Position numbers and translations under genes: made by a program. DNA of 64,000 nucleotides from Thraustochytrium sp. TN22 (lineage: Eukaryota > Sar > Bigyra > Thraustochytrida > Thraustochytriidae). The notes below the pieces were generated by a model. It had not been told where the DNA came from and ran no database searches. It worked only from the letters and a program-made list of their open reading frames with translations. The stretch lies in assembly GCA_013306675.1 (NCBI GenBank), contig JABLUY010000057.1, forward strand, positions 62,001 to 126,000. Direction: 5' to 3'. This document shows, one piece after another, positions 13,107 to 56,003 of this stretch; the first letter of the stretch is position 1, and each line of letters begins with the position of its first letter.

Positions 13107-16100
13107 ATGAGGGCAGCCGCCGCGCTCGTGGCGTTGGCGATCCATGTTGCTCGTGCAGGAGCACAATGCACGCCAACGTCAACGGCCGACGCGCCAGCCT
13201 ACCCGGATAGCTCAAGCGCCTTCAGCACCAGCGGCCTCATCGGCATGAGCTCCGCGACGGAGAACATTCAGCTGCGCTTCACGCCCAACTCGCCACCCGA
13301 CGGCTGGGACGACCGCGCCGACTGCCCGCACGAAGCGTCCGGGCTTGTGGCCTGGGAAGACGCCGCTACCTGGGGCGGATCCGTGCCCGCCAGCGGCGAC
13401 GATGTGACCCTGCCGGAGAATACCAAGGTGCTTGTGGGCGGCTGCTCCGTAGCCAGCGGCACGGTCTTCGGCACCATCACCATCCCGGCCACCTCCGAGC
13501 TCATCTTCGCCGATGAGGACATCGAGTTCGCCACCACTGGCATGTCTGTCGAGGGCAAGCTCGTCATGGGCTCCGAAACCTGCCGCATCAACAGCAAGAT
13601 CGTCGTCACGCTCCACGGCAGCCGCCCAAGCACGATCCCGGCCGCCGCCACGTGCAAAGGCATCGTGGCCTCCGGCAGCGGCGTGCTGGACCTGCACGGC
13701 GCCATCTACCACCCGACGTGGACGCGGCTGGCGGCGACCGCCTCCCCGGGCGACACCGAGATCTTCCTCATGCACCGCGTCAACTGGCAGCCCGGTCAGA
13801 GCGTCTTGCTTACCGGTACCGAGCTCAAGGACTCGCGCGACTGGCACCGCAACGAGGTGCGCACCGTCGCGTCCGTGGCCATCAACGGCGAGTTCTCGCG
13901 CGTCACGCTCTCCGAGGCGCTCGACTACCGGCACTACGGCGGGCACGAGTACCAGGGCGAGGTGGGCCTGCTCTCGCGCAACATTGTCATTCAGGGCGAC
14001 GAGGCCTCCGAGCCTACCGACGCGACGCCCGTGGCCTGCAGCGACTACTACTACGACTCCTACCCGTGCTACGACACGCACCTGACGGGCTTTGGCGGCC
14101 ACACCATGGCGGCCGGGCCGGACGCCACAGCGCGCTTCGAGGGCGTCGAGCTCTACCGCATGGGCCAGACCAACGCGCTCGCGCGCTATCCGTACCACCT
14201 GCACTTGGTGGGCGAGGGCGGCTCGCGCTCGTACCTCAAGCACTCCAGCATGCACCACACCTTCTTCCGCTGCGCCACCATCCACGGCACCAACAACACG
14301 CTCATGCAGGACAACGTGGCGTACGACGCCATCGGCCAGTGCTACTACTCGGGCGAGGACGGTGACGAAGAGAACAACATGCTGGCGTTCAACCTGGCGG
14401 CGCACGTGCACTTCATCGGATACCCGCAGCGCGGCCTGGGCCAGTACATCTCCAACGTGTACAGCAACAGCACCTTCACCCAGCCGGCGGACTCGACGGC
14501 CAGTGGCTTTTACATCACCAACTCGCGCAACTCGTACGTGGGCAACGCGGCGTCAGGCGGCTACTCGGGCTTTGCTGTCGTGTACCTGTCATCGCCCATC
14601 ATGAACGCGCGAGAGAGCCCGATTGTGCCGCACAGGCAGCCCTTTATCGAGTTCGACGGCAACTCGTGCCACTCGGCCGGCTGGTGGTGGCACAGCGCCG
14701 CCTGCATCTACGTCGGCGGCCAGCTGGAGCACGTCGACTCGACGACTGATGCGCTCGTCTACACGCCGGGCCGCGCCGCCACGCGCGCGACGCGCTGCCT
14801 GGACGACTCAAGCGCCGAGTGCCCCCTGACCATGACCAACACCAAGATATTTCTGAGTCGCTGGGGGCTCAACAACTGGGGCAAGCGGTCCACCATCGAC
14901 GGCCTCGAGGCTCACGACACAGTGAGGCCCGTGGCCGTCATCGGCGCGCACTACGTCACCAACATGCTCACAGAGTGCAGGACGGGCTTCGTGCCGGAGG
15001 CGCCCGGCACCAAATTTATCGAGACGCAATGGTTCAACTACCACGTTGGCTTCGAGTTTTACGACACATACCAGCGCCATGTAGTGGACGGCGTCACCTT
15101 TCGCAACTGCGGCGACTCCACCACGTCGGACCCGAGCCCAGTGTGGCGCTTCCTGACGCACTCGGACCGTTTCGTGCCGGGCTTCATCCAGGCCACGCTC
15201 AACGTTGTGTACGAGAATGTGGACAGGGCAGCGCTCGCGATGCCGTCCGTGTCAGACTACCTGGCTATTAGTGGCTACCTTGCCTCCTCGTTTGATGCGG
15301 ATGGCTCCTTCTTTGGTACTTCCGCCACGCCCAAGCAGATTGGGTCTGCTCGCGACGGCATCGAGTGGTGGCGCCTCGACGACGATTGCATCATGCACGG
15401 CGACCTGTGGTACGAGTGCGAGTACGAGTCGCCGTACACGGGCAAGTCGCGACGTGTCGCGAGCCTCACGGTTGTGTACAACGACGAGACGGCCGAGGAG
15501 ATCGCCAACGGACTGCGGTGTGGCAATGGGTACGCTGCGCCATGCGATCGCCTCGGGTCGGCCATGCACCTTGGTCAGGACGGCGACCCCGAGGTGGTTG
15601 GTCTGCCCATCAAGGACAACGCCGTCATCACGGGGCCGGCCAATGGCTTGGGCTGGCTGCTGCTGTATACGGATGGCAGCCCGGCTAGCGCGCGCTTCGA
15701 GCTAGCACAGGTCGACGAGGATGATGTCGTGCTGGTTGCGCTGCCGTACCCGGCCGGCACGAGCTTCTCGGTGAGCTACAAGGCGGTGTACTGGTGCGAC
15801 CCGTCGTGGTGGTCGACGTCGGCGGACCCGACGCTGTGCGAGCAGCCGTACACGGCGGTGGACTCGTTGCAAGCGGTCTTGGACCGCAGCAAGGGTGACG
15901 CGTACTACTACTCGGCGGAGCGGCAGCTGCTCTTCTTCCGCATGATTCAGCAGCCGATCGCGCCGCTGGACTTCTCGCAGCCAGTCGCCTACCCGAACCT
16001 GGGCGCAGCTTACTATGAGCGTGGGGGCGTACGCTTTGCGCCCGACGTGTGGGGCGGTGGCATCTACGTGGAAGCGAGCGGCTGCACGCTGAGCTCGACC

Positions 16101-16400
16101 AACTCCCTGCACTGCGAGCCTGCGGAGTACTCGACTGCGAACATCTGCGACGAGTTTGACGCCTTTGAATCGGGCAGCTCGCCGGTGGCATACGACGGCT
16201 GCACACGCGACTCGGTCCCGACGGCGAGCCCTGTGAGCGGCGACTCGAGCGAGAGTGCGAGGTTCGGCCTGGTGCCCCTGCTGCTGCTGAGTCTCCTACT
16301 CATCGCTTCCACCGTGTTGGGCGGATGGCGGCTGGTCAATCACTTCCGCAAGGGCCAAGAGCCCACGGTCGAGATGAGACCCGCTGACAGTATGTTGTAA
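13107..16400 (+). CDS. G8/beta-helix protein copy 1 (core group A), membrane-anchored
   Basis: An intronless 1,097-residue CEMIP/TMEM2/PKHD1L1-type protein. The signal peptide is residues 1-19 (cleavage before QCTP). The G8 domain lies at about 80-205 (W83, WGGSVP at 89, VLVGG, ADEDIEF). A parallel beta-helix region follows with family hallmarks: [28 protein letters not shown] (R360, H364, H366), [13 protein letters not shown] and [18 protein letters not shown]. In animals the family binds or cleaves hyaluronan; the protist substrate is unknown. After the core ends at VAYDGC (about 1032), a transmembrane helix (about 1052-1074) and a short basic tail follow, so this copy would sit in the plasma membrane. 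No other copy here has such an anchor. The core is almost identical to copy 3 (30813), but the signal peptide and tail differ entirely. Confidence 0.93.
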   Translation: MRAAAALVALAIHVARAGAQCTPTSTADAPAYPDSSSAFSTSGLIGMSSATENIQLRFTPNSPPDGWDDRADCPHEASGLVAWEDAATWGGSVPASGDDVTLPENTKVLVGGCSVASGTVFGTITIPATSELIFADEDIEFATTGMSVEGKLVMGSETCRINSKIVVTLHGSRPSTIPAAATCKGIVASGSGVLDLHGAIYHPTWTRLAATASPGDTEIFLMHRVNWQPGQSVLLTGTELKDSRDWHRNEVRTVASVAINGEFSRVTLSEALDYRHYGGHEYQGEVGLLSRNIVIQGDEASEPTDATPVACSDYYYDSYPCYDTHLTGFGGHTMAAGPDATARFEGVELYRMGQTNALARYPYHLHLVGEGGSRSYLKHSSMHHTFFRCATIHGTNNTLMQDNVAYDAIGQCYYSGEDGDEENNMLAFNLAAHVHFIGYPQRGLGQYISNVYSNSTFTQPADSTASGFYITNSRNSYVGNAASGGYSGFAVVYLSSPIMNARESPIVPHRQPFIEFDGNSCHSAGWWWHSAACIYVGGQLEHVDSTTDALVYTPGRAATRATRCLDDSSAECPLTMTNTKIFLSRWGLNNWGKRSTIDGLEAHDTVRPVAVIGAHYVTNMLTECRTGFVPEAPGTKFIETQWFNYHVGFEFYDTYQRHVVDGVTFRNCGDSTTSDPSPVWRFLTHSDRFVPGFIQATLNVVYENVDRAALAMPSVSDYLAISGYLASSFDADGSFFGTSATPKQIGSARDGIEWWRLDDDCIMHGDLWYECEYESPYTGKSRRVASLTVVYNDETAEEIANGLRCGNGYAAPCDRLGSAMHLGQDGDPEVVGLPIKDNAVITGPANGLGWLLLYTDGSPASARFELAQVDEDDVVLVALPYPAGTSFSVSYKAVYWCDPSWWSTSADPTLCEQPYTAVDSLQAVLDRSKGDAYYYSAERQLLFFRMIQQPIAPLDFSQPVAYPNLGAAYYERGGVRFAPDVWGGGIYVEASGCTLSSTNSLHCEPAEYSTANICDEFDAFESGSSPVAYDGCTRDSVPTASPVSGDSSESARFGLVPLLLLSLLLIASTVLGGWRLVNHFRKGQEPTVEMRPADSML

Positions 16401-18902: not shown

Positions 18903-19215
18903 CTCATCCTAACCACCACGCCTTCGGCCAAAATGAATAGGGGGCAGGAGCCTTGGGTCGCTTCGAGTGGGCCTCTTCAAGCTCGGCCCCATCGCTGCGT
19001 TTTTGATCGAATGCGGAACTAACTTCGCCAGACTCTAGGCCACTTTTTTGGAGCAAATCGGGAGTAAAGTACCCTCTTAATACGCTTTAGTGCCCCCTGT
19101 GCCGGGCGTCACCGAGGGACCCCCGCGTGGTAGGCGGATACGAGTAAGCATAGAGGTGTGATTGGGATAACACCGTAAGTGGCAAGAACTGATCAAATAA
19201 GGAAAAGCAAGATGG
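18903..19215. other. Spacer between transposon remnant and orphan minus-strand gene
   Basis: No gene is seen. It is relatively AT-rich for this window, with a TTAA at about 19077 that could be an edge of the transposon remnant. The last bases should be 3' UTR of the minus-strand gene ending at 19216. Confidence 0.35.
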
Positions 19216-21730: not shown

Positions 21731-24700
21731 ATGGCGTCGCGCGCGACGCTCGTCGCCGTGCTCGCACTCCTGGCAACGCACGTTGCTGGTCAATGCACGC
21801 CTGCATCGACCTCGACCGCCCCAGCCTACCCGACCAGCTCGTCCGCCTTCACCACGAGTGGGCTCGTCAGCATGGCCACGTCGACGGAGAACATTCAACT
21901 GCGCTTCACGCCCAACTCGCCCCCGGCCGGCTGGGACGACTACACCAACTGCCCGCATGAGGCAACCGGCCTGCTCGCATGGGAGGACGCTGCAACCTGG
22001 GGAGGATCCGTGCCGGCCAACGGCGCGGCCGTCACGCTGCCCGCCAACACCAAGGTGCTCGTGGGCGGCTGCTCCGTCCCCGCCGGCACCGTCTTCGGCC
22101 TCATCACCATTCCGGCCACCTCCGAGCTCATCTTCGCCGACGAGGACATCGAGTTCGCCACCACCGGCATGTCCGTCCAGGGCAAGCTCGTCATGGGCTC
22201 CGAGACCTGCCGCATCAACAGCAAGATCGTCGTCACGCTCCACGGCAGCCGGCCCGCTAGCCTGCCGGCCACCGCGACGTACAAGGGCATCGTAGCCTCG
22301 GGCAGCGGCGTGCTGGACCTGCACGGCGCCATCTACCACCCGACGTGGACGCGTCTCTCCGCGACAGCGTCGCCGGGCGGCACGGAGCTCTTTCTGCAGC
22401 ACCGCGTCAACTGGCAGCCTGGACAGACCATCATGATCACCGGCACGGAGATTAAGGACTCGCGCGACTGGCACCGCAACGAGGTGCGCACCGTCGCGTC
22501 CGTGGCCATCAACGGCGAGTTCTCGCGTGTCACGCTCACGTCAGCACTCAGCTACACGCACTATGGCGGCTCCGAATACCAAGCTGAGGTGGGCCTGCTC
22601 TCGCGTAACATTGTCATCCAGGGCGATGTCTCGTCCGAGCCCACCGACACGACCCCGCTCGTCTGCAGCGACAACCTCTACCGCTCGTACCCATGCGAGA
22701 ACACCTTCTTGACGGGCTTTGGCGGCCACACCATGGCGGCCGGGCCGGACGCCACAGCGCGCTTCGAGGGCGTCGAGCTTTACCGCATGGGCCAGACCAA
22801 CGCGCTCGCACGCTACCCATACCACCTGCACCTGGTGGGCGAGGGCGGCTCGCGCTCGTACCTCAAGCACTCTAGTATGCACCACACCTTCTTCCGCTGC
22901 GCCACCATCCACGGCACCAACAACACCCTCATGCAGGACAATGTGGCCTACGACGCCATCGGCCAATGCTTCTACTCGGGCGAGGACGGCGTTGAGGTGA
23001 ACAACACGCTGGCGTACAACCTGGCGGCGCACGTGCACTTCATCGGCTACCCGCAGCACTCCGGCGCGCAGTTCATCGACAACGTCTACAGCAGCAGCGA
23101 TCTCATTCAGCCCGCCGATACCACGGCCAGCGGCTTCTACATCACCAACGCGAATAACCGGTACTACGGCAACGCGGCTTCGGGCGGCTACGCAGGCTTC
23201 GCCATTGTCAAGCTGCCGCGGCCCATTATGAACTTTCAGACCACGGGCGAGATTATCCCGGGGCACGGGCCGGACCAGCAGCCCATGCTCGAATTTGACG
23301 GCAATTCCTGTCACTCCACGGGCTTCTGGTGGGTGGTACGTCCTCAGCCTTGTCTCGCTTGTCGGCTGGCTGGGCCAAAAGAAAAACTAACCAACACGCA
23401 CGCGTGTACAATGCACAGATGTCCGGCTGCGTCTACGTCGGTGGCCAGCTCGAGCACGTGGGCGACACCACGCAGCTCGTGTACAACCCGGGACGCCAGC
23501 CCTTTGGCCGCGACACGCAGTGCCTGACCAACCCAGACAGCGAGAGCATCTACAACCGGTACTCGGAGTGCCCCCTGGTGATGAACAACACCAAGGTCTT
23601 TCTGTGCAACTGGGGCATCAACAATTGGGGTCAACGGTCCACTATTAATGGCGTCGAGGCGCACGACACTGTGCGCGCTGTGGCCGTACTGGGCGCGCAC
23701 TTTGTCACCAATGTGCTCACGGTATGCCGCACCGGCAGCTTCGTGCCGGAGCAGCCCGAAGAAGGGTACTACGGCACGCGCTGGTACAACGGGCACATGG
23801 GCTTCGAGTGGTATGACACTGCGCAGTACCACCTGGTCGACGGCATCACCTTCCGCAACTGCGGGGCGCCGCCGGTTGACCCGAACGACCCGTACGACTT
23901 CGGCTCCCCAGTGTGGCGCGTGCTCACGCACTCGGACCGCTACGTACCAGGCCACCTGCAGTCGACCAAGAACGTGCGCTACGAGAATGTCAACTCCAAC
24001 TACCTGGTCATGCCCAATGGGCCAGATACTCTCGCGGTGAGCGGCAACCTGAGCAACTGGATCGACGAGGACGGCTCGGTCTTTGGCAAGTCGTCGCCGC
24101 AGCTCATCGGGTCGCGGCGCGGCGGCATGGAGTGGTGGCGCCTCGACGACGCGTGCACCTCGGAGAACAACGATTATTGGTACTCTTGCGATCGCATCTC
24201 GCCGTACACAGGCCTGCGCCGTGGCGTCGGCAGTTTCTACATTGAGCACAATGCGGCACTCAAGGCACGTTTCGACAGTGGCGAGATCTGCGGCAACGGC
24301 GAGAGCCCGCGACTCCCCTGCCCGACCATCGGCTCCGTTGTGCATCTCGGCCAGCAAGGCGACCCGGCCGAGGTGGGCCTGGCGCTCTCGTCGAACACGG
24401 TGGTGACCGGGCCGACGAACGGGCTTGGGTGGCTTATCCTCTTTGACAAGGGCAGCCCGACGTCGGCGACCTTCAACTTTGCGCAGATCGACGAGGACGA
24501 CCTCGTGCTTGTGGCGCTGCCGTACCCGCCCGGCACGAGCTTTGACATTCGCTACAAGGCCGCGTACTGGTGTTACGCTCCACTCTACACATGCGAGGTG
24601 CAGCTCTCGGCGGCCGCCTCGCTGAGTGCCGTCATCCAGGGCAACGGCGACCTGTACTACTACGACACGAATCGCGGTCTGCTTTTCTTTCGCTTTGTGC

Positions 24701-25770
24701 AGCAGGTGATGGACCGACTCGACTTCTCGCAAGCGCCGGCCTACGGCACCCTGGGCACGACATACTTTGAGCACTCCGGCATGCGCATCGCTCCCATCAT
24801 GTGGGGCGGCGGGATTGAGCTGATCGCCACGGGTTGCACACTCAACCCAGCCGACAATGCCTACTGCACGCCGTCGACCTACTCTCAGGATGGCATCTGC
24901 CAGGATCACGGGTTCGCGTCGGGCACGGTGCCAGTAGCGTACGATGGCTGTGCCCAGTCGGCTGGTGGTGGAGGCGGCGGCAGCAGCAGCAGCTCTCCAA
25001 CGATGGTGCCGACACCTCTCCCGACGCCGACAGCAGCGCCGACCTCGACCGAAGCCACGACTGCGCCTACGACTGCGCGGCCGACGACTTCCGCGCCCAC
25101 GGTGTCAGCACCGACCACATCGACGCCGGAACCCACCACAGGCGCAACGGCGGAGCCCACCACCTCTGACGAAGGTCCCTTTTGTAACTGGGGCGCAGAG
25201 CTCGTCCAGGGCGAGTTGCTCGACGCCTTTCCGAACGTCAACTCGTGGCAGGCGTGCCAGACCCGGTGCCGCCAACTTGAAACGAGCGGCTGCCTCGCGT
25301 GGAGCTGGTATGAGGACGATGGCGTCCCCTACTGCAACCTGTATTCGCAAATCACCGGCGTGACCATCGAGCCCGATTTTATCTCTGGCGCGCTGGAGTG
25401 CGAATCGGCGCCCATGACCGCGGAGCCCACAACTGCAGAGCCGACGCCAGCGACTGAGGCGCCCACCACGTCAGCACCGACCGCACCGACGCCGGATCCA
25501 ACGACTCTCGCAACGGCGGAGCCCACTGCCTCTGGCGAGGGGCCCTTTTGCAACTGGGGCGCAGAGCTCGTCCAGGGCGAGTTGCTCGACGCCTTTCCGA
25601 ACGTCAACTCGTGGCAGGCGTGCCAGACCCGGTGCCGCCAGCTTGAAACGAGTGGCTGCCTTGCGTGGAGCTGGTATGAGGACGACGACGTCCTCTACTG
25701 CAACCTGTATTCGCAGATCACAGGCGTGACCATCGAGCCCGAGTTCGTCTCTGGCGCTTTGGACTGCTAA
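21731..25770 (+). CDS. G8/beta-helix protein copy 2 (core group C), secreted with two PAN-like repeats; one intron
   Basis: Two exons, 21731-23335 and 23419-25770, encode about 1,318 residues. The intron (23336-23418) has a GTACGT donor, a CTAAC branch-point-like site and a CACAG acceptor. It is phase 0 and removes a segment that intronless copies lack. The signal peptide is residues 1-20 (cleavage before QCTP). The G8 domain and beta-helix match copy 1, with RYPYHLHLVGEG and EDGVEVNNT. The core ends at VAYDGC (about 1045). A Gly/Ser/Thr/Pro linker precedes two PAN/Apple-like repeats (about 1120-1195 and 1242-1318), each starting FCNWGAELVQGELL with six cysteines. An AATAAA lies 13 nt after the stop (25783-25788). 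No membrane anchor is present, so it is secreted or bound to matrix. Confidence 0.93.
23336..23418 (+). other. Intron of G8 copy 2
   Basis: 83 nt, GTACGT...CACAG, with AAAACTAACC as a likely branch site. Nearly identical to the intron of copy 7 and ten bases longer than that of copy 6. Confidence 0.85.
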
Positions 25771-26142: not shown

Positions 26143-26178
<36 letters not shown>

Positions 26179-27037: not shown

Positions 27038-27348
27038 CCCAACAGGCAGGCGCTCTGCGCTAGCCCTTGCGCGCGCGCGCACGCTCACGCCCGCGCTCGC
27101 GCAAGCGCGTGCGTGCGTGCGTGCGTGCGTGAGAGCAAGCAAGCGAGCAGCCGTGCGAGCAGGCTTGGGAGAGAGCGTGCCTGCAAGCGAAGAAAACAAG
27201 GCTCAGATCACCACGGCGACACAGCTCGCATCGCAGCCGCCAGTCCTCCTAGCCTCGCTCGCTGCCATCGCGCACGTCGAGCTCGCCACCAAGGACGTTG
27301 ACGACTGGAGCACTTGTCTCGCCGAGCAACACGAACCGTGACGCCGCG

Positions 27349-41494: not shown

Positions 41495-44400
41495 ATGGCG
41501 CGCGCCGCTGCAGTGGGCGCGGCCGTGCTGGCGCTCCTCGCGGCCTACGCTCGGGCAGCATGTACGCCGACCTCGACCAGCAGCGCGCCGGCCTACCCGG
41601 CCAGCTCCTCCGCCTTTAGCACGAACGGGCTCATTGGCATGGATGATGCCGCCGAGCTCGTGCAGCTGCGCTTCACGCCCAACTCGCCCCCGGATGGCTG
41701 GGATGACAGCGCCGACTGCCCGCACAAGGCGTCCGGCTTGCTCGCATGGGAGGACGCCGCAACCTGGGGCGGCTCCGTGCCCGCCAACGGCGCGGCCGTC
41801 ACGCTGCCCGCCAACACCAAGGTGCTCGTGGGCGGTTGCTCTGTCGCCGCCGGCACCGTCTTTGGACTCATCACCATTCCGGCCACCTCCGAGCTCATCT
41901 TCGCCGACGAGGACATCGAGTTCGCCACCACCGGCATGTCCGTCCAGGGCAAGCTCGTCATGGGCTCCGAGACCTGCCGCATCAACAGCAAGATTGTCGT
42001 CACGCTCCACGGTAGCCGGCCCGCCAGCCTGCCGGCCACCGCGACGTACAAGGGCATCGTGGCCTCGGGCAGCGGTGTGCTGGACCTGCACGGCGCCATC
42101 TATCACCCGACGTGGACGCGTCTCGCCGCGACGGCCTCGGCGGGCGACACCGAGATCTTCCTCATGCACCGCGTCAACTGGCAGCCCGGTCAGAACGTGC
42201 TACTGACGGGCACGGAGATCAAAGACGCGCGCGACTGGCACCGCAACGAGGTGCGCACCATCGCGGCCGTCGCAATCCGCGGCGCGTTCTCGCGCGTCAC
42301 GCTCACCGAGGCACTCGACTACTCCCACCACGCGAGCACCAAGTTCCAGGGCGAGGTGGGTTTGCTCACGCGTAACATCGTCATCCAGGGCGACGAGTCC
42401 TCCGAGCCTAGCGACACCACTCCGCTCGCCTGCAGCGACTCGACCTACTCCAGCTACCCGTGCGAGAACACCCACCTGACCGGCTTTGGCGGCCACACCA
42501 TGGCGGCCGGCTCCGATGCCACGGCACGCTTCGAGGGCGTCGAGCTCTACCGCATGGGCCAGACCAACGCCCTCGCGCGCTACCCGTACCACTTGCACCA
42601 GGTTTTTGAAGGTGGTTCGCGTTCGTACCTGAAGCACTCCAGCATGCATCACACCTTCTTCCGCTGCGCCACCATCCATCGCACCAACGGCACTCTGATC
42701 CAGGACAACGTCGCCTACGACGCCATCGGCCAGTGCTACTACTCGGGCGAGGACGGCGACGAGGAGGACAACACCGTGGCCTTCAACCTGGCGGCCCACG
42801 TGCACTTCATCGGCTACCCGCAGCGCGGCGCCGCGCAGTACATCGACGACGTCTACAGCCACACGGACCTGGTTCAGCCGGCTGACTCGACGGCCAGTGG
42901 CTTCTACATCACCAACACGCACAACTCGTACTACGGCAACGCCGCGTCGGGTGGCTACTCCGGCTTCGCCATCGTGCACATGGCGAGTCCGATCATGAAC
43001 GCCCGCGACAGTCCCATCGAGCCGCACAAGCGGCCCTTTGTCGAGTTCGACGGCAACTCGTGCCACTCGTCCGGCTGGTGGTGGGGCAGCGCCGCCTGCA
43101 TCTACGTCGGCGGCACGCTGAAGCACGTCGACGACTCGAGCCTGGACCTCGTGTACAACCCGGGCCGGTCGTCAACGCGCGACACGCGGTGCGAGGATGA
43201 CGCGAGCAAGGAGTGCCCGCTTGTGACGACCAACACCAAGGTGTTTCTCAGCCGCTGGGGGCTCAACAACTGGGGCCAGCGCTCCACGATCGACAGCCTC
43301 GAGGCCCACGACACGGTGCGCGCCATCGCGGTCCTCGGCTCCCACTTCATCACCAATATCCTCACCGAGTGCCGCACGGGGTTCACGCCAGAGAGCCCCG
43401 GCACCAAGTGGCTCGAGACGCAGTGGTTCAACTACCACGTTGGCTTCGAGTTCTACGACGTCTATCAGCGGCACGTGGTGGATGGCATTACCTTCCGCAA
43501 CTGCGGCGACTCCACGACGTACACGCCAAGCCCGGTGTGGCGCTTCCTGACGCACTCGGACCGCTACGTGCCGGGCTTCATCCAGGGCACGCTCAACGTG
43601 GTGTACGAGAACGTGGACCGCGATGCCTTTGCGCTCCCGTCGGTCCCGGACTACTTGTCCATCAGCGGCCACTTGGCCAACTCGTACGACGCGGACGGAT
43701 CCTTCTTTGGAACCTCGGCCTCGCCCAAGACCATCGGGTCGGCGCGCGGCGGCATCGAATGGTGGCGCCTGGACGACGAGGGCTGCACCAAGCATGGCGA
43801 CCTGTGGTACGAGTGCGAGTACGTCTCGCCGTACACGGGCAAGCCGCGGCGCACGGCGAGCTTCACCGTGGTGCACGACCAGGACATGGCGGACGACGTC
43901 AACAACGGTGTGCTATGCGGCAACGGCAACCAGATCCAGTGCGACCGCATCGGGTCGGTGATGCACCTGGGCCGCGAGGGCGACCCCGACGTGGTTGGCC
44001 TGCCCATCAAGAACAATGCCGTGCTCACTGGGCCGGCCAACGGCCTCGGCTGGCTGCTGCTTTACAATGACGGCAGCCCGGTGAGTGCCAAGTTCAACCT
44101 GGCGCAGATCGACGAGGACGACGTGCTGCTCCTCGCGATGCCCTACCCGGCCGGCACGAGCTTCTCGGTCAAGTACGTGGCCGCGTACTGGTGCAATCCG
44201 GCGTGGTGGTCGAGCGTGCCGACGGCGTGCGAGCACCCGTTCACGGCGGTGAGCTCGGTGCAAGAAGTCCTGGACAGCAACGGCGACGCGTACTACTACT
44301 CGACGTCGCGACAGTTGCTCTTTGTGCGCTTCGTGCAGCAAAAGATGGCGCCGCTCAGCTTCACGCAGACGCCGGCGTACGGCAACCTAGGCACGGCCTA

Positions 44401-45388
44401 CTACGAGCGGTCGGGCGTGCGATTCGCACCAAACATGTGGGCCGGGCACTTGCAGGTGGACGCGAGCGGGTGCACGCTGAGCTCGAGCAACTCGCTGCAC
44501 TGCGAGCCGACGACGTACTCGACGACGGGTATCTGCGACGAGTTCGACGCGTTTGCGACGGGCAGCTCTCCCGTGGCCTTTGACGGCTGTGTGGCGAGTG
44601 GGAGCACCCCGACCGCTGCGCCGACGACGCGTTCACCGACGCCGTACCCAACGACGAGGTCGCCGACCAAGAACCCGACGCCGTACCCAACGACGAGGTC
44701 GCCCACCAAGTCGCCAGCGACAACGCCGACGCGCACGCCGACAAAGAACCCGACGCCGTACCCAACGACGAGATCGCCCACCAAGTCGCCAGTGGCAACG
44801 CCGACGCGCACGCCGACCAAGAACCCGACGCCGTACCCAACGACGAGGTCGCCCACCAAGTCGCCAGCGACAACGCCGGCGCCGACGGCGACGCGCCTCG
44901 TGGGCGACGCCTGCGGCGTCTCAACGAGCGAAAACCTCTCGATCGCTGGCCGCAGGATCGCCTCCAAGACCGTCTCTGACGACAGTGCATGCGCTGAGGC
45001 CTGCGCTGAGAAGAGCAAGTGCGGAATGTTCAACTTTGACACGGCCACTGGCAAGTGCACGATGCTCAAGCGCAAGGATCACACCGTCACGTCGACGGAG
45101 GGCGTCGTGGCGGGCGTCATCTCGTGTGCGGGAGAAGACGAGCTGGAGCGGTCATGCAAAGCGAAAGGCACTGGCCTCAAGCTCACTGGAACAGTGGTCG
45201 ACGCCTTCGACAGCAGTAACTGGAAGAAATGCCAGCAGCGCTGCGTCGACGACAGCTCCTGCGCCTATTGGACCTGGTTTAAGCAGGGCGGTAAACGCTG
45301 TGAGCTCCTCTCGTCCATCACTGGAACGGCCAGCGCCAAGAGTGGCAAGCGCGGTCCTGCCGACTGCGACGACCTTGATAATATTTAA
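41495..45388 (+). CDS. G8/beta-helix protein copy 5 (core group B), secreted, PAN pair
   Basis: An intronless protein of 1,297 residues from ATG 41495 (signal peptide [21 protein letters not shown], before ACTP). The core is almost identical to copy 4 from [11 protein letters not shown] to VAFDGC (about 1033), including [12 protein letters not shown]. It differs in scattered places, such as [12 protein letters not shown] where the others have PHEA. The linker (about 1037-1138) uses [13 protein letters not shown] and [12 protein letters not shown] units. The tail (1140-1297) is a PAN pair with [22 protein letters not shown] and [14 protein letters not shown]. It is clearly closer to the tail of copy 7 than to that of copy 4. 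So the two tandem neighbours 4 and 5 share a core but not a tail. Secreted; no anchor. Confidence 0.93.
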
Positions 45389-46238
45389 AAACTGTGATAA
45401 TCATGATACGAAGCTCTTGTTCCTCTTTCACTTTGTAGAACAATCATGATACGAAGCTCTTGCTCCTCTCGCTCTTGTTCTTCTCGCTCTTGTTCCTCTC
45501 GCTCTTGTTCCTCTCGCTCTTGTTGCCAGCCTCATTTCATTTCAAGAAAGGCAAAATCCGACCGAAGATCGACATTCGGCCCGGCAAGGCCCGCCAAGTC
45601 GGATGAATCTTCCCCTTCCAGACGCTAGCTTGCTTGACACCACCCCTCGGGTCATCATTCCCTCGCACGCTCGCTCCCTCGCACGCTCGCCCCCTCGCGC
45701 TCGTGCAGCTCGCTCGCCCAGACACTTCGCTTGCCCAGCGGTGGCCGTCCAGGCCATGCAAAACAAAATGGCCAGCATGTGGGACTTCCCTGCTGTGGGC
45801 ATCGTGTGGCGCTCGTGCATTCGCGTGCGTGTTCTAACTGCTGTCCTCCTTGCTGGGCCACGTGCTGAGCCATGCGTCTGATTTCTTTCTCGCCCGCCCT
45901 CAGTGGCCTGCACGGCCATTCGCGTGCGCGTCAACTGTCCTCCTTGCTGGGCCATGGCACCATGCCCGAGATCTGCCCATGCGCTGCCACGTGGTCTGGC
46001 CGGCCGCGTCGGACGATGACAGCGCCAGCTTGATGCCGCGCGCACCTTGATTGCTCGCTCGCTACTGCCTCACAACGGCACAAGAGGCCGCCCGGGGCCT
46101 CACATGGCTCGCATGGCCCGCGCGGTCATCCCTTTCAACCTCCCAGGACGCCGTCGCCGGCGCTGCAATGCAGCACCGCATTGGAGGAAGCAGACCTGCA
46201 TTGCCCACGCAAACCAAACCCTCAACCAAAACAAAAGC
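45389..46238 (+). other. Intergenic spacer before G8 copy 6; upstream part duplicated before copy 7
   Basis: No gene is supported. The first ~140 bases hold the short repeats listed at 45399. From about 45567 to the ATG the sequence resembles 51595-52245 before copy 7, so both share promoter and 5' UTR (last ~45 bases before the ATG identical). Confidence 0.6.
45399..45526 (+). repeat. 43-bp duplication plus 15-bp GCTCTTGTTCCTCTC array after G8 copy 5
   Basis: AATCATGATACGAAGCTCTT occurs at 45399 and again at 45442. The second copy is followed by four to five 15-base GCTCTTGTTCCTCTC units. It begins ten bases after the stop of copy 5, so it would lie in its 3' UTR. Confidence 0.8.
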
Positions 46239-49200
46239 ATGGCGCTCCATTGGCGTGCCATCCTCTTCTTCATCGCGACGACAGCCAGCCTCCTCGTCCA
46301 CACCACGTTTGCGCAGTCCTGTTCGCCATCGTCGACGAGCGCTGCGCCTCGCTATGGCGCCAGCGCAAGCTTCCCAACCGGCAGCCTCATCAGCATGAGC
46401 ACGGCCACAGAGAACATCCAACTACGCTTCACGCCCAACTCGCCGCCGGCCGGCTGGGATGACCGCACCAGCTGCCCACATGAGGCCTCCGGCCTGCTCG
46501 CCTGGGAGGATGCCGCCACCTGGGGCGGCTCCGTGCCCGCCAACGGCGCGGCCGTCACGCTGCCCGCCAACACCAAGGTGCTCGTCGGCGGCTGCTCTGT
46601 CCCCGCCGGCACCGTCTTCGGACTCATCACCATTCCGGCCACCTCCGAGCTCATCTTCGCCGACGAGGACATCGACTTCGCCACCACCGGCATGTCCGTT
46701 CAGGGCAAGCTCGTCATGGGCTCCGAGACCTGCCGCATCAACAGCAAGATCGTTGTCACGCTCCACGGCAGCCGGCCCACCAGCCTGCCGGCCACCGCGA
46801 CGTACAAGGGCATCGTGGCCTCGGGCAGCGGCGTGCTGGACCTGCACGGCGCCATCTACCACCCGACGTGGACGCGTCTCTCCGCGACAGCATCGCCGGG
46901 CGGCACGGAGCTCTTTCTGCAGCACCGCGTCAACTGGCAGCCTGGGCAGACCATCATGATCACCGGCACCGAGATCAAGGACTCGCGCGATTGGCACCGC
47001 AACGAGGTGCGCACCATCGCGGCCGTCGCCACGAAAGGCGAGTTCTCGCGTGTCACGCTCACGTCAGCACTCAGCTATACGCACTACGGCGGCTCCGAGT
47101 ACCAGGCCGAGGTGGGCCTGCTCTCGCGCAACATCGTCATCCAGGGCGACGCCTCGTCCGAGCCCACCGACACGAGCCCGCTCGTCTGTGGCGACCACCT
47201 CTATCGCTCGTATCCGTGCGAGGACTCCTTCCTGACGGGCTTTGGCGGCCACACCATGGCGGCCGGGCCGGACGCCACAGCGCGCTTCGAGGGCGTCGAG
47301 CTCTACCGCATGGGCCAGACCAACGCGCTCGCGCGCTACCCGTACCACCTGCATCTAGTGGGCGATGGCGGCTCGCGCTCGTACCTCAAGCACTCCAGCA
47401 TGCACCGCTCCTTTTATCGCTGCGCCACCATCCACGGCACCAACAACACCCTCATGCAGGACAATGTGGCCTACGACGCCATCGGCCACTGCTTCTACTC
47501 GGGCGAGGACGGCGTCGAGGTGAACAACACGCTGGCCTACAACCTGGCGGCGCACGTGCACTTTATCGGCTACCCGCAGCACTCCGGCGCGCAGTTCATC
47601 GACAACGTCTACAGCAACAGCAATCTCGTGCAGCCCGCGGATTCGACCGCGAGCGGCTTCTACATCACCAATGCGTACAACCGGTACTACGGCAACGCGG
47701 CCTCGGGCGGCTACGCAGGCTTCGCCATTGTCAAGCTGCCGCGGCCCGTGATGCACTTTCAAACCACGGACGAGATCATTCCGGGCCTGGCGCCGGACCA
47801 GCGGCCCATGCTCGAGTTTGATGGCAACTCGTGCCACTCCACGGGCTTCTGGTGGGTGGTACGTCTTCTTGCTTGTCTTGCTTGTCGGCTGGCTGGGCCA
47901 AAAGAAAAACTAACCAACACGCAATGCACAGATGTCCGGCTGCGTCTACGTCGGTGGCCAGCTCGAGCACGTGGGCGATACAACGCAGCTCGTGTACAAC
48001 CCGGGACGCCAGCCCTTTGGCCGCGACACGCAGTGCCTGACCAACCCAGACAGCGAGAGCATCTACAACCGGTACTCGGAGTGCCCCCTGGTGATGAACA
48101 ACACCAAGGTCTTTCTGTGCAACTGGGGCATCAACAACTGGGGCCAGCGCTCCACTATTAATGGCGTCGAGGCGCACGACACTGTGCGCGCTGTGGCCGT
48201 ACTGGGCGCGCACTTTGTCACCAATGTGCTCACGGTATGCCGCACCGGCAGCTTCGTGCCGGAGCAGCCCGAAGAAGGGTACTACGGCACGCGCTGGTAC
48301 AACGGGCACATGGGCTTCGAGTGGTATGACACTGCGCAGTACCACCTGGTCGACGGCATCACCTTCCGCAACTGCGGGGCGCCGCCGGTTGACCCGAACG
48401 ACCCGTACGACTTCGGCTCTCCAGTCTGGCGCGTGCTCACGCACTCGGACCGCTACGTGCCGGGCCACCTGCAGTCGACTAAGAACGTGCGCTACGAGAA
48501 TGTCAACTCCAACTACCTGGTCATGCCCAATGGGCCAGATACTCTCGCGGTGAGCGGCAACCTGAGCAACTGGATTGACGAGGACGGCTCGGTCTTTGGC
48601 AAGTCATCGCCGCAGCTCATCGGGTCGCGGCGCGGCGGCATGGAGTGGTGGCACCTCGACGACGCGTGCACATCGGAGAACAACGATTATTGGTACTCTT
48701 GCGATCGCATCTCGCCGTACACAGGCCTGCGCCGTGGCGTCGGCAGTTTCTACATTGAGCACAATGCGGCACTCAAGGCACGTTTCGACAGTGGCGAGAT
48801 CTGCGGCAACGGCGAGAGCCCGCGACTCCCCTGCCCGACCATCGGCTCCGTTGTGCATCTCGGCCAGCAAGGCGACCCGGCCGAGGTGGGCCTGGCGCTC
48901 TCGTCGAACACGGTGGTGACCGGGCCGACGAACGGGCTTGGGTGGCTTATCCTCTTTGACAAGGGCAGCCCGACGTCGGCGACGTTCAACTTCGCACAGA
49001 TCGACGAGGACGACCGCGTGCTTGTGGCGCTGCCGTACCCGCCCGGCACGAGCTTTGACATTCGCTACAAGGCCGCGTACTGGTGCTACGCTCCACTCTA
49101 CACGTGTGAAGTGCAGCTCACGGCAGCCACCTCGCTGAGTGCCGTCATCCAGGGCAACGGCGACCTTTACTACTACGATTCGACCCGCGGCCTGCTCTTC

Positions 49201-51303
49201 TTCCGTTTTGTGCAGCAGGTGATGGACCGACTCGACTTCTCGCAAGCGCCGGCCTACGGCACCCTGGGCACGACATACTTTGAGCACTCCGGCATGCGCA
49301 TCGCGCCCATCACGTGGGGCGGCGGCGGAATTGAGCTCAGGGCCTCAGGTTGCACGCTCAACGCGGCGGACAGCGCCTACTGTGCGCCCTCGGCCTACTC
49401 GCAGGATGGCATCTGCCAGGATCATGGTTTCGCGTCGGGCACGGTGCCTGTGGCGTTCGATGGCTGTGCACAGCCGTCTGGCGGTGGAGGTGGTAGCAGC
49501 AGCAGATCTCCAACGATGATGCCGACGCCTCTCTCGACGGCGACAGCCGAGCCGACCCTCGCCGAAAGGACAACGGCGCCCACGACTGCGCGGACGACCG
49601 CCGCGCCAACTACGCCAGCACCGACTACACCGACGGCGGAGCCCACGAGAGGCGCAACGGCGGAGCCCACGGCATCTGACGACGGCCCCTTTTGCAATTG
49701 GGGTGCAGAGCTCGTCCAGGGCGAGCTGCTCGAGGACATTGGGGACGTTGACTCTTGGCAGGCGTGCCAGACCTGGTGCCGCGAATTCGAAACGCGTGGC
49801 TGCATCGCGTGGAGCTGGTACGAGGACGAAGGCGCCCTCTACTGCAACCTGTACTCGGAGGTCACTGGCGTCAACGTTGAGCCCAACTTTCTCTCCGGCG
49901 CGCTGGATTGCGGATCGGCGCCGACGACGAATGAGCCTGTCACGACAGACGCGCCGACAACGCCAGCCTCGGCTGCACCGACGACGGAGCCTACGACACG
50001 CGCAACGGCGGAGCCCACGGCATCTGACGACGGCCCCTTTTGCAACTGGGGTGCAGAGCTCGTCCAGGGCGAGCTGCTCGAGGACATTGGGGACGTTGAC
50101 TCTTGGCAGGCGTGCCAGACCTGGTGCCGCGAATTCGAAACGCGTGGCTGCATCGCGTGGAGCTGGTACGAGGACGAAGGCGCCCTCTACTGCAACCTGT
50201 ACTCGGAGGTCACTGGCGTCAACGTTGAGCCCAACTTTCTCTCCGGCGCGCTGGATTGCGGATCGGCGCCGACGACGAATGAGCCTGTCACGACAGACGC
50301 GCCGACAACGCCAGCCTCGGCTGCACCGACGACGGAGCCTACGACACGCGCAACGGCGGAGCCCACGGCATCTGACGACGGCCCCTTTTGCAACTGGGGT
50401 GCAGAGCTCGTCCAGGGCGAGCTGCTTGAGGACATTGGGGACGTTGACTCTTGGCAGGCGTGCCAGACCTGGTGCCGCGAATTTAAAACGCGTGGCTGCA
50501 TCGCGTGGAGCTGGTACGAGGACGAAGGCGCCCTCTACTGCAACCTGTACTCGGAGGTCACTGGCGTCAACGTTGAGCCCAACTTTCTCTCCGGCGCGCT
50601 GGATTGCGGATCGGCGCCGACGACGAATGAGCCTGTCACGACAGACGCGCCGACAACGCCAGCCTCGGCTGCGCCGACGACGGAGTCTACGACACGCGCA
50701 ACGGTGGAGCCCACGGCATCTGACGACGGCCCCTTTTGTAACTGGGGTGCAGAGCTCGTCCAGGGCGAGCTGCTCGAGGACATTGGGGACGTTGACTCTT
50801 GGCAGGCGTGCCAGACCTGGTGCCGCGAATTTAAAACGCGTGGCTGCATCGCGTGGAGCTGGTACGAGGACGAAGGCGCCCTCTACTGCAACCTGTACTC
50901 GGAGATGACCGGCGCCAACATCGAGCCTGACGTTGTCTCTGGCGGACTGGAGTGCGGCTCAGCGTCCCCGAGTGCAGAGCCCACGACCGCTGAGCCCACC
51001 TCGGCAGCACCCACGACTGCCCAGCCTACGCCAGCCACGCCGGCGAAGCCATTTCCTGTCGATAGCCCGCAATGCACCTGGGCTGAGCGGGCCGTGCAAG
51101 GCGACGTGGTGCGTTCCATGAACCGAGTGCGCTCCTGGAAGGCCTGCCAGAACAAGTGCCGTAAGCGCAAGGCGCGAGGCAAACGAGGCTGCGAAGCATG
51201 GACCTTTTACAAGGACAAGGAGGTGCGCTTCTGTATTCTCTACTCTCGGGTCACAGGCGTCACCACCGAGCCCGGCTACATCTCTGGCGCGCGGGAGTGC
51301 TAA
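46239..51303 (+). CDS. G8/beta-helix protein copy 6 (core group C), secreted, five PAN-like repeats; one intron
   Basis: The largest copy: exons 46239-47858 and 47932-51303 give about 1,663 residues. The phase-0 intron (47859-47931, 73 nt) runs from GTACGT to CACAG with CTAAC inside. The signal peptide (MALHWRAILFFIATTASLLV, cleavage near TFA-QSC) is identical in copy 7. Core features are as for copy 2, but with HRSFYRCATIHGTN and YDAIGHCFYSGEDG. The core ends at VAFDGC (about 1052). A Thr/Pro linker precedes four near-identical 116-residue units (starting near 1123, 1239, 1355, 1471), each a PAN-like FCNWGAELVQGELLEDIG module plus a Thr/Pro spacer. A fifth, diverged module (about 1585-1663, CTWAERAVQGDVV, basic) closes the protein. 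There is no membrane anchor. The repeats suggest multivalent binding. Confidence 0.92.
47859..47931 (+). other. Intron of G8 copy 6
   Basis: 73 nt, GTACGT...CACAG, branch-like AAAACTAACC. It lacks a ten-base CACGCGTGTA-like stretch present near the acceptor of the copy 2 and copy 7 introns and differs in the pyrimidine-rich 5' part. Confidence 0.85.
49678..50960 (+). repeat. 348-bp tandem coding repeat (PAN modules of G8 copy 6)
   Basis: Units begin at about 49678, 50026, 50374 and 50722, exactly 348 bases apart. Units 1 and 2 are almost identical; units 3 and 4 share GAATTTAAAACG where 1 and 2 have GAATTCGAAACG. The last unit drifts at its 3' end. The near-identity at silent sites indicates very recent amplification. 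Confidence 0.93.
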
Positions 51304-52245
51304 GCAAAACCTGCAACTACCTTGCTTATAAATCTTACGAATTCAGATTGTCTCTTTCATGTTTCATTCGCACGGACAAGCAATGCGTGGGCTGCCGCTC
51401 CCAATGCACGAATTTTGCAGTTGTGTCGCCGTGTCTGCGGAGCTCTCCGCCATGGCGTGATGTGGCATAGCGCAGCGAGCTAGCTAGCCTTTTGACCTGC
51501 TCCTTATTAAGGAGGGTGGCAAGCGCTGTGAGCCCCTCTCACTCGATAGGAAAGAAAAAAAAGACGACGATCGCCGGCGTAGCCCGACCAGAAATCGACA
51601 CTCAACCTGGCAAGGCCCGGCAAGTCGGATCAATCTTCCCCTCCCGGACGCCCGCTTGCTTGCTATAAGTATTTCCCCCGGGCCCTCGCTCCCTCGCACG
51701 CTCGCTCCCTCGCACGCTCGCGCCCGAGTGAGGGAGCTCCCTCGCAAGCTCGCACGCTGAGCTCACACTTCTCTCGCCCATGCGCGGATGCCAATACGTT
51801 GCCCACCACAGGGAAGCCCAACGTGCTGGGCCATCCGCCACGCGGTCAGATTGGCCTCCACGGCCATTCGCGTGTGCGTCAATTGTCCCCCTTGCCGGGC
51901 CATGGCACCATGCCCGAGATCTGCCCATGCGCTGCCGCAAGCACACGTACATGGTCCGGCCGGCCGCGTCGGACGATGATTGCGCCGGCTTGATGCCGCG
52001 CGCACCTTGATTGCTCCACTCGCTCGTTCGCCCGTGCCTCTTACTTACTTACTCACTTACTTACTTACCTACAACGCCGCGGGGCCGCGCGGGGCCTCAC
52101 ATGGCTCGCATGGCCCGCGCGGCCATCACCTCCAACCCTCGCTTCATCGACTCCACGGCTTCCAGGAAGGACGCTGCCGCGCCGGCGCGGCAGCAAGCAA
52201 ACCTGCATTGCCCACGCAAACCAAACCCTCAACCAAAACAAAAGC
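51304..52245 (+). other. Intergenic spacer before G8 copy 7, part of the 6-kb tandem duplication
   Basis: No gene is supported. About 51595-52245 is homologous to 45567-46238. A (CTTA)n microsatellite at about 52041-52070 is present here and not before copy 6. The last bases before ATG 52246 match those before copy 6. Confidence 0.55.
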
Positions 52246-55200
52246 ATGGCGCTCCATTGGCGTGCCATCCTCTTCTTCATCGCGACGACAGCCAGCCTCC
52301 TCGTCCACACCACGTTTGCGCAGTCCTGTTCGCCATCGTCGACGAGCGCTGCGCCTCGCTATGGCGCCAGCGCAAGCTTCCCAACCGGCAGCCTCATCAG
52401 CATGAGCGAGGCCACAGAGAACATCCAACTGCGCTTCACGCCCAACTCGCCGCCGGCCGGCTGGGATGACCGCACCAGCTGCCCACATGAGGCCTCCGGC
52501 CTGCTCGCCTGGGAGGACGCCGCCACCTGGGGCGGCTCCGTGCCCGCCAACGGCGCGGCCGTCACGCTGCCCGCCAACACCAAGGTGCTCGTCGGCGGCT
52601 GCTCCGTCCCCGCCGGCACCGTCTTCGGACTCATCACCATTCCGGCCACCTCCGAGCTCATCTTCGCCGACGAGGACATCGACTTCGCCACCACCGGCAT
52701 GTCCGTTCAGGGCAAGCTCGTCATGGGCTCCGAGACCTGCCGCATCAACAGCAAGATCGTTGTCACGCTCCACGGCAGCCGGCCCACCAGCCTGCCGGCC
52801 ACCGCGACGTACAAGGGCATCGTGGCCTCGGGCAGCGGCGTGCTGGACCTGCACGGCGCCATCTACCACCCGACGTGGACGCGTCTCTCCGCGACAGCAT
52901 CGCCGGGCGGCACGGAGCTCTTTCTGCAGCACCGCGTCAACTGGCAGCCTGGGCAGACCATCATGATCACCGGCACGGAGATTAAGGACTCGCGCGACTG
53001 GCACCGCAACGAGGTGCGCACCGTCGCGTCCGTGGCCATCAACGGCGAGTTCTCGCGTGTCACGCTCACGTCAGCACTCAGCTACACGCACTATGGCGGC
53101 TCCGAATACCAAGCTGAGGTGGGCCTGCTCTCGCGTAACATTGTCATCCAGGGCGATGTCTCGTCCGAGCCCACCGACACGACCCCGCTCGTCTGCAGCG
53201 ACAACCTCTACCGCTCGTACCCATGCGAGGACTCCTTCCTGACGGGCTTTGGCGGCCACACCATGGCGGCCGGGCCGGACGCCACAGCGCGCTTCGAGGG
53301 CGTCGAGCTCTACCGCATGGGCCAGACCAACGCGCTCGCGCGCTACCCGTACCACCTGCACCTGGTGGGAGACGGCGGCTCGCGCTCGTACCTCAAGCAC
53401 TCCAGCATGCACCGCTCCTTTTATCGCTGCGCCACCATCCACGGCACCAACAACACCCTCATGCAGGACAATGTGGCCTACGACGCCATCGGCCACTGCT
53501 TCTACTCGGGCGAGGACGGCGTCGAGGTGAACAACACGCTGGCCTACAACCTGGCGGCGCACGTGCACTTTATCGGCTACCCGCAGCACTCCGGCGCGCA
53601 GTTCATCGACAACGTCTACAGCAACAGCAATCTCGTTCAGCCCGCCGATACCACGGCCAGCGGCTTCTACATCACCAACGCGAATAACCGGTACTACGGC
53701 AACGCGGCTTCGGGCGGCTACGCAGGCTTCGCCATTGTCAAGCTGCCGCGGCCCATTATGAACTTTCAGACCACGGGCGAGATTATCCCGGGGCACGGGC
53801 CGGACCAGCAGCCCATGCTCGAATTTGACGGCAATTCCTGTCACTCCACGGGCTTCTGGTGGGTGGTACGTCCTCAGCCTTGTCTCGCTTGTCGGCTGGC
53901 TGGGCCAAAAGAAAAACTAACCAACACGCACGCGTGTACAATGCACAGATGTCCGGCTGCGTCTACGTCGGTGGCCAGCTCGAGCACGTGGGCGATACCA
54001 CGCAGCTCGTGTACAACCCGGGACGCCAGCCCTTTGGCCGCGACACGCAGTGCCTGACCAACCCAGACAGCGAGAGCATCTACAACCGGTACTCGGAGTG
54101 CCCCCTGGTGATTAACAACACCAAGGTCTTTCTGTGCAACTGGGGCATCAACAACTGGGGTCAACGGTCCACTATTAATGGCGTCGAGGCGCACGACACT
54201 GTGCGCGCTGTGGCCGTACTGGGCGCGCACTTTGTCACCAATGTGCTCACGGTATGCCGCACCGGCAGCTTCGTGCCGGAGCAGCCCGAAGAAGGGTACT
54301 ACGGCACGCGCTGGTACAACGGGCACATGGGCTTCGAGTGGTATGACACTGCGCAGTACCACCTGGTCGACGGCATCACCTTCCGCAACTGCGGGGCGCC
54401 GCCGGTTGACCCGAACGACCCGTACGACTTCGGCTCTCCAGTCTGGCGCGTGCTCACGCACTCGGACCGCTACGTGCCGGGCCACCTGCAGTCGACTAAG
54501 AACGTGCGCTACGAGAATGTCAACTCCAACTACCTGGTCATGCCCAATGGGCCAGATACTCTCGCGGTGAGCGGCAACCTGAGCAACTGGATCGACGAGG
54601 ACGGCTCGGTCTTTGGCAAGTCGTCGCCGCAGCTCATCGGGTCGCGGCGCGGCGGCATGGAGTGGTGGCGCCTCGACGACGCGTGCACCTCGGAGAACAA
54701 CGATTATTGGTACTCTTGCGATCGCATCTCGCCGTACACAGGCCTGCGCCGTGGCGTCGGCAGTTTCTACATTGAGCACAATGCGGCACTCAAGGCACGT
54801 TTCGACAGTGGCGAGATCTGCGGCAACGGCGAGAGCCCGCGACTCCCCTGCCCGACCATCGGCTCCGTTGTGCATCTCGGCCAGCAAGGCGACCCGGCCG
54901 AGGTGGGCCTGGCGCTCTCGTCGAACACGGTGGTGACCGGGCCGACGAACGGGCTTGGGTGGCTTATCCTCTTTGACAAGGGCAGCCCGACGTCGGCGAC
55001 GTTCAACTTCGCACAGATCGACGAGGACGACCGCGTGCTCGTGGCGCTGCCGTACCCGCCCGGCACGAGCTTTGACATTCGCTACAAGGCCGCGTACTGG
55101 TGCTACGCTCCACTCTACACGTGTGAGGTGCAGCTCACGGCGGCCACCTCACTGAGTGCCGTCATCCAGGGCAACGGCGACCTGTACTACTACGATTCGA

Positions 55201-56003
55201 CCCGCGGCCTGCTCTTCTTCCGTTTTGTGCAGCAGGTGATGGACCGGCTCGACTTCTCGCGGGCGCCAGCCTACGGCACCTTGGGCACGACGTACTTTGA
55301 GTACTCCGACATGCGCATCGCGCCCATCACGTGGGGCGGCGGTGGAATTGAGCTCACGGCGAGCGGGTGCGCCAAGAATAGCGCGGACAAGAAGTACTGC
55401 AGGCCGGTCAGTTATAGCACGGCAGGCATCTGCGAGGATCATGGTTTTCCAGCGGGGAGCACGCCCGTCTCGTATGACGCCTGTGCCGTCCAAAACGGTG
55501 CCGGATCAGAATGCACGGTGGAGACGAGTGAGGGCCTCCGTATCGCGAGCGGCGTGGTGGCCAAGTCGACGGAGGCGAGCGTGTCTGCGTGCGCGTCGGC
55601 GTGTGAGGCACATCCCAAGTGTGGAATGTTCAACTTCGAGACGGCCTCGGGCAAGTGCTCGCTGCTCAAGCGCAAGAAGCACTCCGTCTCGGTGGACTCA
55701 GGTGTGACGTCGGGCGTTCTAACGTGCCCTGGGGACGCGGCCAGTGTGCCGCGCACGTGCAAGGCGGCCAAGTCGGGCTCCAAGCTGACGGGCACGGTGT
55801 TAGACGACGTGGCGACGAAGAACTGGAAGGATTGCCAGGAGCGCTGTGCGGCCGACAGTGCGTGCGCCTTTTGGACGTGGTTCAAGGAGGGCGGCAAGCG
55901 GTGCCAGCTGCTGTCGGATATCTCCGGCACGACCAAGGCCAAGGGCGGCAAACGCGGACCGGGCAACTGCCGGGACCTGAACAATCCTCGTCTCCTCCCG
56001 TGA
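52246..56003 (+). CDS. G8/beta-helix protein copy 7 (core group C), secreted, PAN pair without linker; one intron
   Basis: Exons 52246-53865 and 53949-56003 give about 1,224 residues. The intron (53866-53948, 83 nt) is the copy 2 type. Signal peptide and first ~240 codons follow copy 6. After that the core switches repeatedly between copy 2-like and copy 6-like sequence. It has HRSFYRC and YDAIGHCFYSG like copy 6 but [13 protein letters not shown] and MNFQTTGEIIPGHG like copy 2. The core ends at VSYDAC (about 1051) and passes almost directly into a PAN pair (1061-1224: KCGMFNFETASGKCSLLKRKKH, WTWFKEGGKRCQLL) related to the tail of copy 5. There is no Thr/Pro stalk, unlike copies 2 to 6. Secreted; no anchor. 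Confidence 0.92.
53866..53948 (+). other. Intron of G8 copy 7
   Basis: 83 nt, GTACGT...CACAG, branch-like AAAACTAACC, essentially the same sequence as the copy 2 intron 30 kb away and unlike the adjacent copy 6 intron. Confidence 0.85.

Follow-up and report, generated by a model that had tools for sequence, protein, structure and literature searches.

In gene clusters of the UGT1 and protocadherin type, gene conversion homogenises one part of the sequence and leaves another diverse; concerted evolution with unshared ends is an already known phenomenon. The locus described here comes from the thraustochytrid Thraustochytrium sp. TN22 (assembly GCA_013306675.1, contig JABLUY010000057.1, positions 62,001 to 126,000) and lies in a stretch of 64,000 nucleotides (the window, 65.7% GC) whose positions 13107-56003 are occupied by seven genes (c1 to c7), all on the + strand. 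Each of the seven starts with a leader, continues with a core of ~1,030-1,050 residues that holds G8, a CEMIP-type beta-helix and a weakly matching domain X, and closes with a C-terminal tail, which in most copies carries PAN modules. The array differs from the UGT1- and protocadherin-type clusters in that each member is a complete gene of its own and that neither end is shared. Its cores were shared recently and its tails stayed where they were. Gene conversion probably homogenises the cores, with the leaders and PAN tails lying outside the converted tracts.

At the protein level, the array resembles TMEM2/CEMIP2 and CEMIP (KIAA1199/HYBID), which likewise have G8 and the CEMIP beta-helix and, with a weaker match in the array, domain X. 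G8 and CEMIP_beta-hel scored above the Pfam cut-off in 7/7 array copies, in line with the family assignment made in a preliminary description of this sequence; CEMIP_X was found at E ≤ 0.001 in all seven and above the cut-off in three (c2, c6, c7). TMEM2 (8c6i, E 3.8e-39) was the sole solved relative at E ≤ 0.01. Over a stretch that takes up ~176 residues (167-342) of its chain, the array profile has ~11 (208-218), and one report describes lectin-like domain 1, together with a small beta-sandwich, as an insertion that follows three turns in TMEM2, with the reported activity-abolishing substitutions falling in lectin-like domain 1 (PMC10206443). Pfam searches of the seven copies found neither a lectin-type domain nor a second (C-terminal) lectin-like domain, the place of the latter being occupied by the c1 tail or the PAN tails. 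Judged by sequence, the array cores are CEMIP/TMEM2 relatives that, unlike TMEM2, have neither its lectin-like domains nor the stretch that holds the first of them, and the PAN tails are a novelty of the array. A limited literature search found no protein combining G8 and PAN; in Cafeteria burkhardae, a G8-domain entry is linked to cell-adhesion genes whose expression changed (PMC7852580).

Cores and tails in the array follow different trees. The core tree unites c1 with c3, c4 with c5, and c2 with c6 and c7, each with 100/100 support, in the topology ((c1,c3),(c4,c5)) and (C34,(c2,(c6,c7))), C34 being a relative on contig 34. The tail tree joins c3 to c4 and c5 to c7, again at 100/100 each. 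These are the core groups (A, c1 and c3; B, c4 and c5; C, c2, c6 and c7) and the tail kinships named in the preliminary description, which had also envisaged comparing separate core and tail trees. The comparison reveals incongruence, each topology being rejected on the other's data by approximately unbiased (AU) tests: c4+c5 on the tail data (p 2.2e-57 for DNA, 3.0e-5 for protein) and c3+c4 on the core data (p 2.6e-43 with 11 cores, 2.2e-51 with 4). Tree conflict alone does not give the direction of movement, and we compared the divergence of tails and cores at 4-fold degenerate sites. Among the genes ending in the alpha pair of PAN modules (c3, c4, c5 and c7), the tails of c4 and c5 differed at 18/24 sites (0.75) and their cores at 39/537 (0.07). 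The remaining pairs followed the same order, with tail and core differences of 20/37 and 163/438 for c3-c4, 25/47 and 126/370 for c5-c7, 18/23 and 155/439 for c3-c5, 15/27 and 131/379 for c3-c7, and 21/33 and 140/368 for c4-c7. The excess of tail over core divergence held in 6/6 alpha pairs; one-sided Fisher tests gave the lowest p in c4-c5 (7.6e-15) and the highest in c3-c4 (0.034). In the beta tails of c2 and c6, eight unit comparisons gave 0.20-0.35 versus 0.13 in the c2-c6 core, and the c1-c3 cores differed at 30/537 sites. Within a pair, then, the tails have diverged further than the cores, which makes the cores the younger part of these genes.

This order of ages bears on two other explanations. 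The preliminary description had pictured tails moving between cores to create new core-tail combinations. The discordant combinations stand, as seen in the incongruent trees and in c6 and c7, which have a common promoter, leader and most of the core yet carry unrelated tails. The proposed direction is disfavoured, since in every alpha pair divergence is greater between the tails than between the cores that carry them. Further, the leaders also differ in c1/c3 and c4/c5, so that moving a tail would be insufficient on its own, and the genome outside the array holds no close donor tail (best alpha match E 3.2e-6; no beta match at E ≤ 1e-5). We therefore consider moving tails unlikely; a variant, in which tails were replaced from donors now lost, might conceivably apply. 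A history with no exchange at all, in which purifying selection kept the cores alike and the tails and leaders were unconstrained, would agree with the low ratios of nonsynonymous to synonymous divergence (dN/dS) in whole cores (0.08-0.34, 7 pairs). However, 4-fold sites are untouched by selection at the protein level, and they differ by only 0.06-0.07 in the c1-c3 and c4-c5 cores against 0.75 in the c4-c5 tails. Such a history would demand extreme synonymous constraint on core codons and is also at odds with the conflict between core and tail trees, which leaves it with next to no credibility.

The near-identity of the cores has abrupt edges. On the + strand, c1 and c3 share a core-only block (13161..16202 versus 30879-33920, 97.3% identity). 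In 100-base steps across its 5' edge, identical bases number 99 inside the core and 30 outside; across its 3' edge they number 95 and 40. The 5' edge in c4/c5 is similar (90 inside, 36 outside) and the block continues into the linker. The c6/c7 block (45904..49343 versus 51852-55360, + strand, 94.2%) begins 335 bases before the c6 ATG and runs almost to the C-terminus of the core. With the exception of the tails and of the DNA preceding c6 and c7, the flanking sequences had no similarity to each other (E 1e-10, at least 80 bases). A second tandem pair, on contig 416, also has an N-terminal edge: identity is 93.6% over 3,112 core bases and 71% over 187 bases of the N-terminal transmembrane (TM) part. 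The flanking part of this pair is homologous but older, as predicted by conversion that halts at an edge of divergence. Chimeric joins, or haplotypes placed end to end, might be suspected in an assembly of 453 contigs. Yet the closest core pair is 97.3% identical, flanks and leader are individual to each copy except c6/c7, the frames of all seven are open, and contig 416 repeats the pattern; an assembly artefact is thus very unlikely.

In three pairs, c1/c3, c4/c5 and the one on contig 416, near-identity starts with the mature N-terminus. Such a start is what a directed cassette replacement would leave, if a dedicated process moved the whole core, from the end of the leader to the end of the core, in the fashion of mating-type loci. 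The edges coincide, however, with the end of homology, which ordinary conversion cannot cross; tracts in group C and in c4/c5 are partial, and the c6/c7 block crosses the leader edge. No recombinase or silent cassette was identified, although no search was aimed at them. We regard a dedicated process as highly improbable, and the copying would be ordinary gene conversion. According to this scenario, an old tandem array of G8/CEMIP-type genes would have diverged locus by locus in its promoters, signal peptides and C-terminal tails, and conversion from copy to copy would have overwritten the long core between the diverged ends again and again. Concerted evolution would then be confined to the core, with a tract in c6/c7 that also includes the promoter and leader.

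The interior of the cores is uneven as well. Between c1 and c3, synonymous divergence (dS) rose from 0.022 in the 5' half to 0.143 in the 3' half; between c4 and c5 it fell from 0.157 to 0.026. Divided into windows, the c4-c5 core diverged by 0.34 in the first and by 0.05 or less from the fourth onward. At core columns 151-250, B and C copies differed by 0.10-0.13 versus 0.45-0.50 between array copies and C34. The group-C cores are mosaics. That of c7 switches between tracts resembling c2 and tracts resembling c6 (30 runs versus 91.6 expected, 0/5000 permutations); local trees placed c7 with c6 at columns 51-280 (100/100) and with c2 at columns 287-370 (97/97) and 508-890 (90/94), support being weaker in other segments. 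Applied to the array, the pairwise homoplasy index (PHI) test gave 0/1000 permutations whether all sites or only silent ones were used; with one gene per clade, silent sites gave p 0.010. Runs of silent identity within the array stood out for three group-C pairs, c2-c6 and c6-c7 (0/2000 each) and c2-c7 (0.02). Inside this group, conversion is well shown by these data. Between groups, c2-c5 (0.038) was the sole within-array pair to pass in the set of 11 genes. Conversion between core groups is likely, but less secure than within group C because the silent-run tests between groups are weak; the c1/c3 and c4/c5 core pairs rest on the edges, the tree conflict and the uneven divergence.

Several results count against gene conversion of the cores or temper the case for it. 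The two beta-tail comparisons that we tested gave Fisher p of 0.061 and 0.11, and tail 4-fold sites are few (23-47) in poorly conserved tails, which inflates the apparent age of the tails. The runs test returned 0/5000 in all 8 triples tried, suggesting that it may be over-sensitive to clustered sites. Silent runs between groups are weak after correction over pairs: among the ten pairs listed for the set of 11, three were near 0.04, two of them with the gene on contig 451 (C451), and with one gene per clade only c5-C451 passed (global p 0.025). As a separate observation, core columns 542-662 of C451 have unusually long silent matches with group A and B copies (global p 0.025-0.04). These matches look like exchange across contigs, which they may be, or they may be due to chance.

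The genome searched comprised 37,891,866 bases in 453 contigs, the window being part of contig 406, and family searches returned 11 G8 and 11 CEMIP_beta-hel matches. The corresponding 11 genes are the seven of the array, C34, the two on contig 416 and C451. Pfam and the gene models agree with the preliminary description, which had recognised seven same-strand genes with a shared G8/beta-helix core; the C-terminal limit of that core is at residue 1030-1052 across the copies. Introns were called from frame and splice signals. Genes c1, c3, c4 and c5 have none and are open throughout, whereas the frames of c2, c6 and c7 appear split because each contains one phase-0 intron (83, 73 and 83 bases) at a common site. 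C34 has a 156-base candidate intron at this group-C site; in the contig-416 pair a different site is interrupted, by introns of 92 and 105 bases. The leaders are unlike one another in all copies except c6 and c7.

Differences among the genes, all on the + strand, are concentrated in what follows the core. The first, c1 (13107..16400), has its core at ~13161-16202 and a short C-terminal tail without PAN, in which a hydrophobic TM-like stretch and a short basic segment could be read by eye. The end of C451 resembles that of c1, C34 ends in a hydrophobic stretch without the basic tail, and the contig-416 pair has no C-terminal tail and a hydrophobic stretch at the N-terminus instead (all read by eye). 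PAN_1 was above the Pfam cut-off in the other 6/7 array copies. In c2 (21731..25770, intron 23336-23418) the core is followed by a Thr/Pro-rich linker and two beta-PAN units from ~24952, each of the FCNWGAELVQG type. A long linker of the TRAPTxAPT type precedes the alpha-PAN pair of c3 (30813..34910, core ~30879-33920). The c4 gene (36423..40301) has a core and linker close to those of c5 and an alpha-PAN pair of the kind seen in c3; c5 (41495..45388), in turn, has an alpha-PAN pair of the c5/c7 kind. The tail of c6 (46239..51303, intron 47859-47931) follows a linker and starts at ~49468; it has beta-PAN units of the same FCNWGAELVQG type as c2, four in number, to which a diverged fifth PAN is added. 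Lastly, c7 (52246..56003, intron 53866-53948), with a leader in common with c6 and the mosaic core, has an alpha-PAN pair of the c5/c7 kind and no Thr/Pro linker. These are the tail types that had been told apart beforehand, with c1 as a type of its own.

At E ≤ 1e-5 in the genome, the c5 alpha tail matched the four alpha tails of the array, a single PAN of c2 and, outside the array, two weak PANs (E 3.2e-6 and 4.7e-6, 27-31% identity); a beta unit gave 7 matches, all of them c2 and c6 units. PAN relics in intergenic DNA were not found by tblastn (E 0.01), the 9 matches not fully within gene models being array genes with slightly overrunning ends. The c3 alpha tail was modelled with a mean predicted local distance difference test (pLDDT) score of 84.9 and folds as a tandem apple/PAN. 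It matched the fold of the apple domains of plasma kallikrein and factor XI (E 3.4e-7) and of the Sarcocystis lectin SML-2 (E 2.6e-6). Only single modules superpose, as in plasminogen (72 columns, 1.6 Å), and the template modelling score of the whole tail is low (~0.37, root mean square deviation ~11 over both modules) because the two modules are differently placed. The c6 beta-PAN units (49594-51300) differ in protein by 0-12% among themselves versus 26-30% from the c2 units, suggesting that the repeats are homogenised within the gene. PAN_1 itself has expanded strongly, with at least 106 matches at E ≤ 0.001 in the genome among 150 candidates scored and PAN-rich tandem open frames on contigs 413 (75-120 kb), 428 (41-50 kb), 296 (0.7-9.3 kb), 420, 44 and 22.

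The preliminary description had likened the locus to antigen or recognition-receptor families that diversify, a role for which we found no evidence. On average, cores and beta units have no sign of diversifying selection: half-core dN/dS was 0 to 0.39 and that of beta-PAN units 0.11-0.34 (4 pairs), next to the low whole-core values given above. Alpha tails are too diverged for meaningful dN/dS.

Neighbouring frames in the window have other features. Between c1 and c2, on the - strand, overlapping and apparently degraded frames (17036-18902) contain a C-terminal Cys/His cluster; Pfam gave nothing significant for them, and they may be piggyBac-like. A 750-amino-acid frame between c2 and c3 (27298-29550, + strand) has charged heptad-like repeats, the appearance of a coiled coil and internal DNA repeats. 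Upstream of the array, 10365-12251 (+ strand) encodes folate-receptor-like and glucose/sorbosone dehydrogenase domains, an arrangement known from HHIP-like proteins.

A bacterial frame (L027) on a contig of a Ktedonobacteraceae metagenome-assembled genome was the single relative among 53 pattern matches in a contig scan. Like the array copies, it has G8 and CEMIP_beta-hel above the cut-off and no lectin-type Pfam match, and it is 43% identical in the matched part; it differs in being a partial frame on a 3,146-base contig, with the C-terminal end not covered and no PAN in the covered part. Viral contigs gave no confirmed relative with c1 or the seven-row alignment as queries. By homology, the core would be a parallel beta-helix of the type found in polysaccharide-degrading enzymes; the product would be a beta-helix protein, either secreted or held in the membrane, that acts on a polysaccharide. 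An AlphaFold model of c1 with ten array sequences had a mean pLDDT of 29.9 and was not used. TMEM2 is a type II membrane protein, and the contig-416 pair, with its N-terminal hydrophobic anchor, is type II-like. It is plausible that a core active on polysaccharide is combined with differing tails, and the PAN/apple modules of c2-c7 or the membrane anchor of c1 would set where or on what the core acts, perhaps standing in for the built-in lectin. The enzyme role is predicted from homology, and a caution comes from TMEM2, whose own activity is disputed: one paper reports intrinsic activity (PMC10474455), and the other describes TMEM2 as lacking hyaluronidase activity and assigns no active site (PMC10206443). 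Across the 11 copies and L027, 146 columns are invariant, and those also identical in 8c6i include H332, R360, H364, H366, H393, E417 and D418 of c1, a candidate active or metal site. The motifs GGH, RYPxHxH, T[IV]H and EDG, kept in the 11 protist copies, the bacterial relative and TMEM2, provide a short list for mutagenesis.

The locus adds to the CEMIP/TMEM2 family a relative without lectin-like domains, described here in a microbial eukaryote and a bacterial contig. It also corrects the direction of a domain-shuffling story, since the part that moved cannot be known from tree conflict alone and synonymous divergence points to the cores. A further possibility, to which we give little weight, is a shared-core system in which a polysaccharide-active beta-helix core is kept current in many genes by copying, perhaps targeted to the whole mature core, and in which the promoter, the leader and the binding or anchoring tail remain old and specific to each gene. 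If so, the array would deliver one improved core to several surface and secreted addresses simultaneously.

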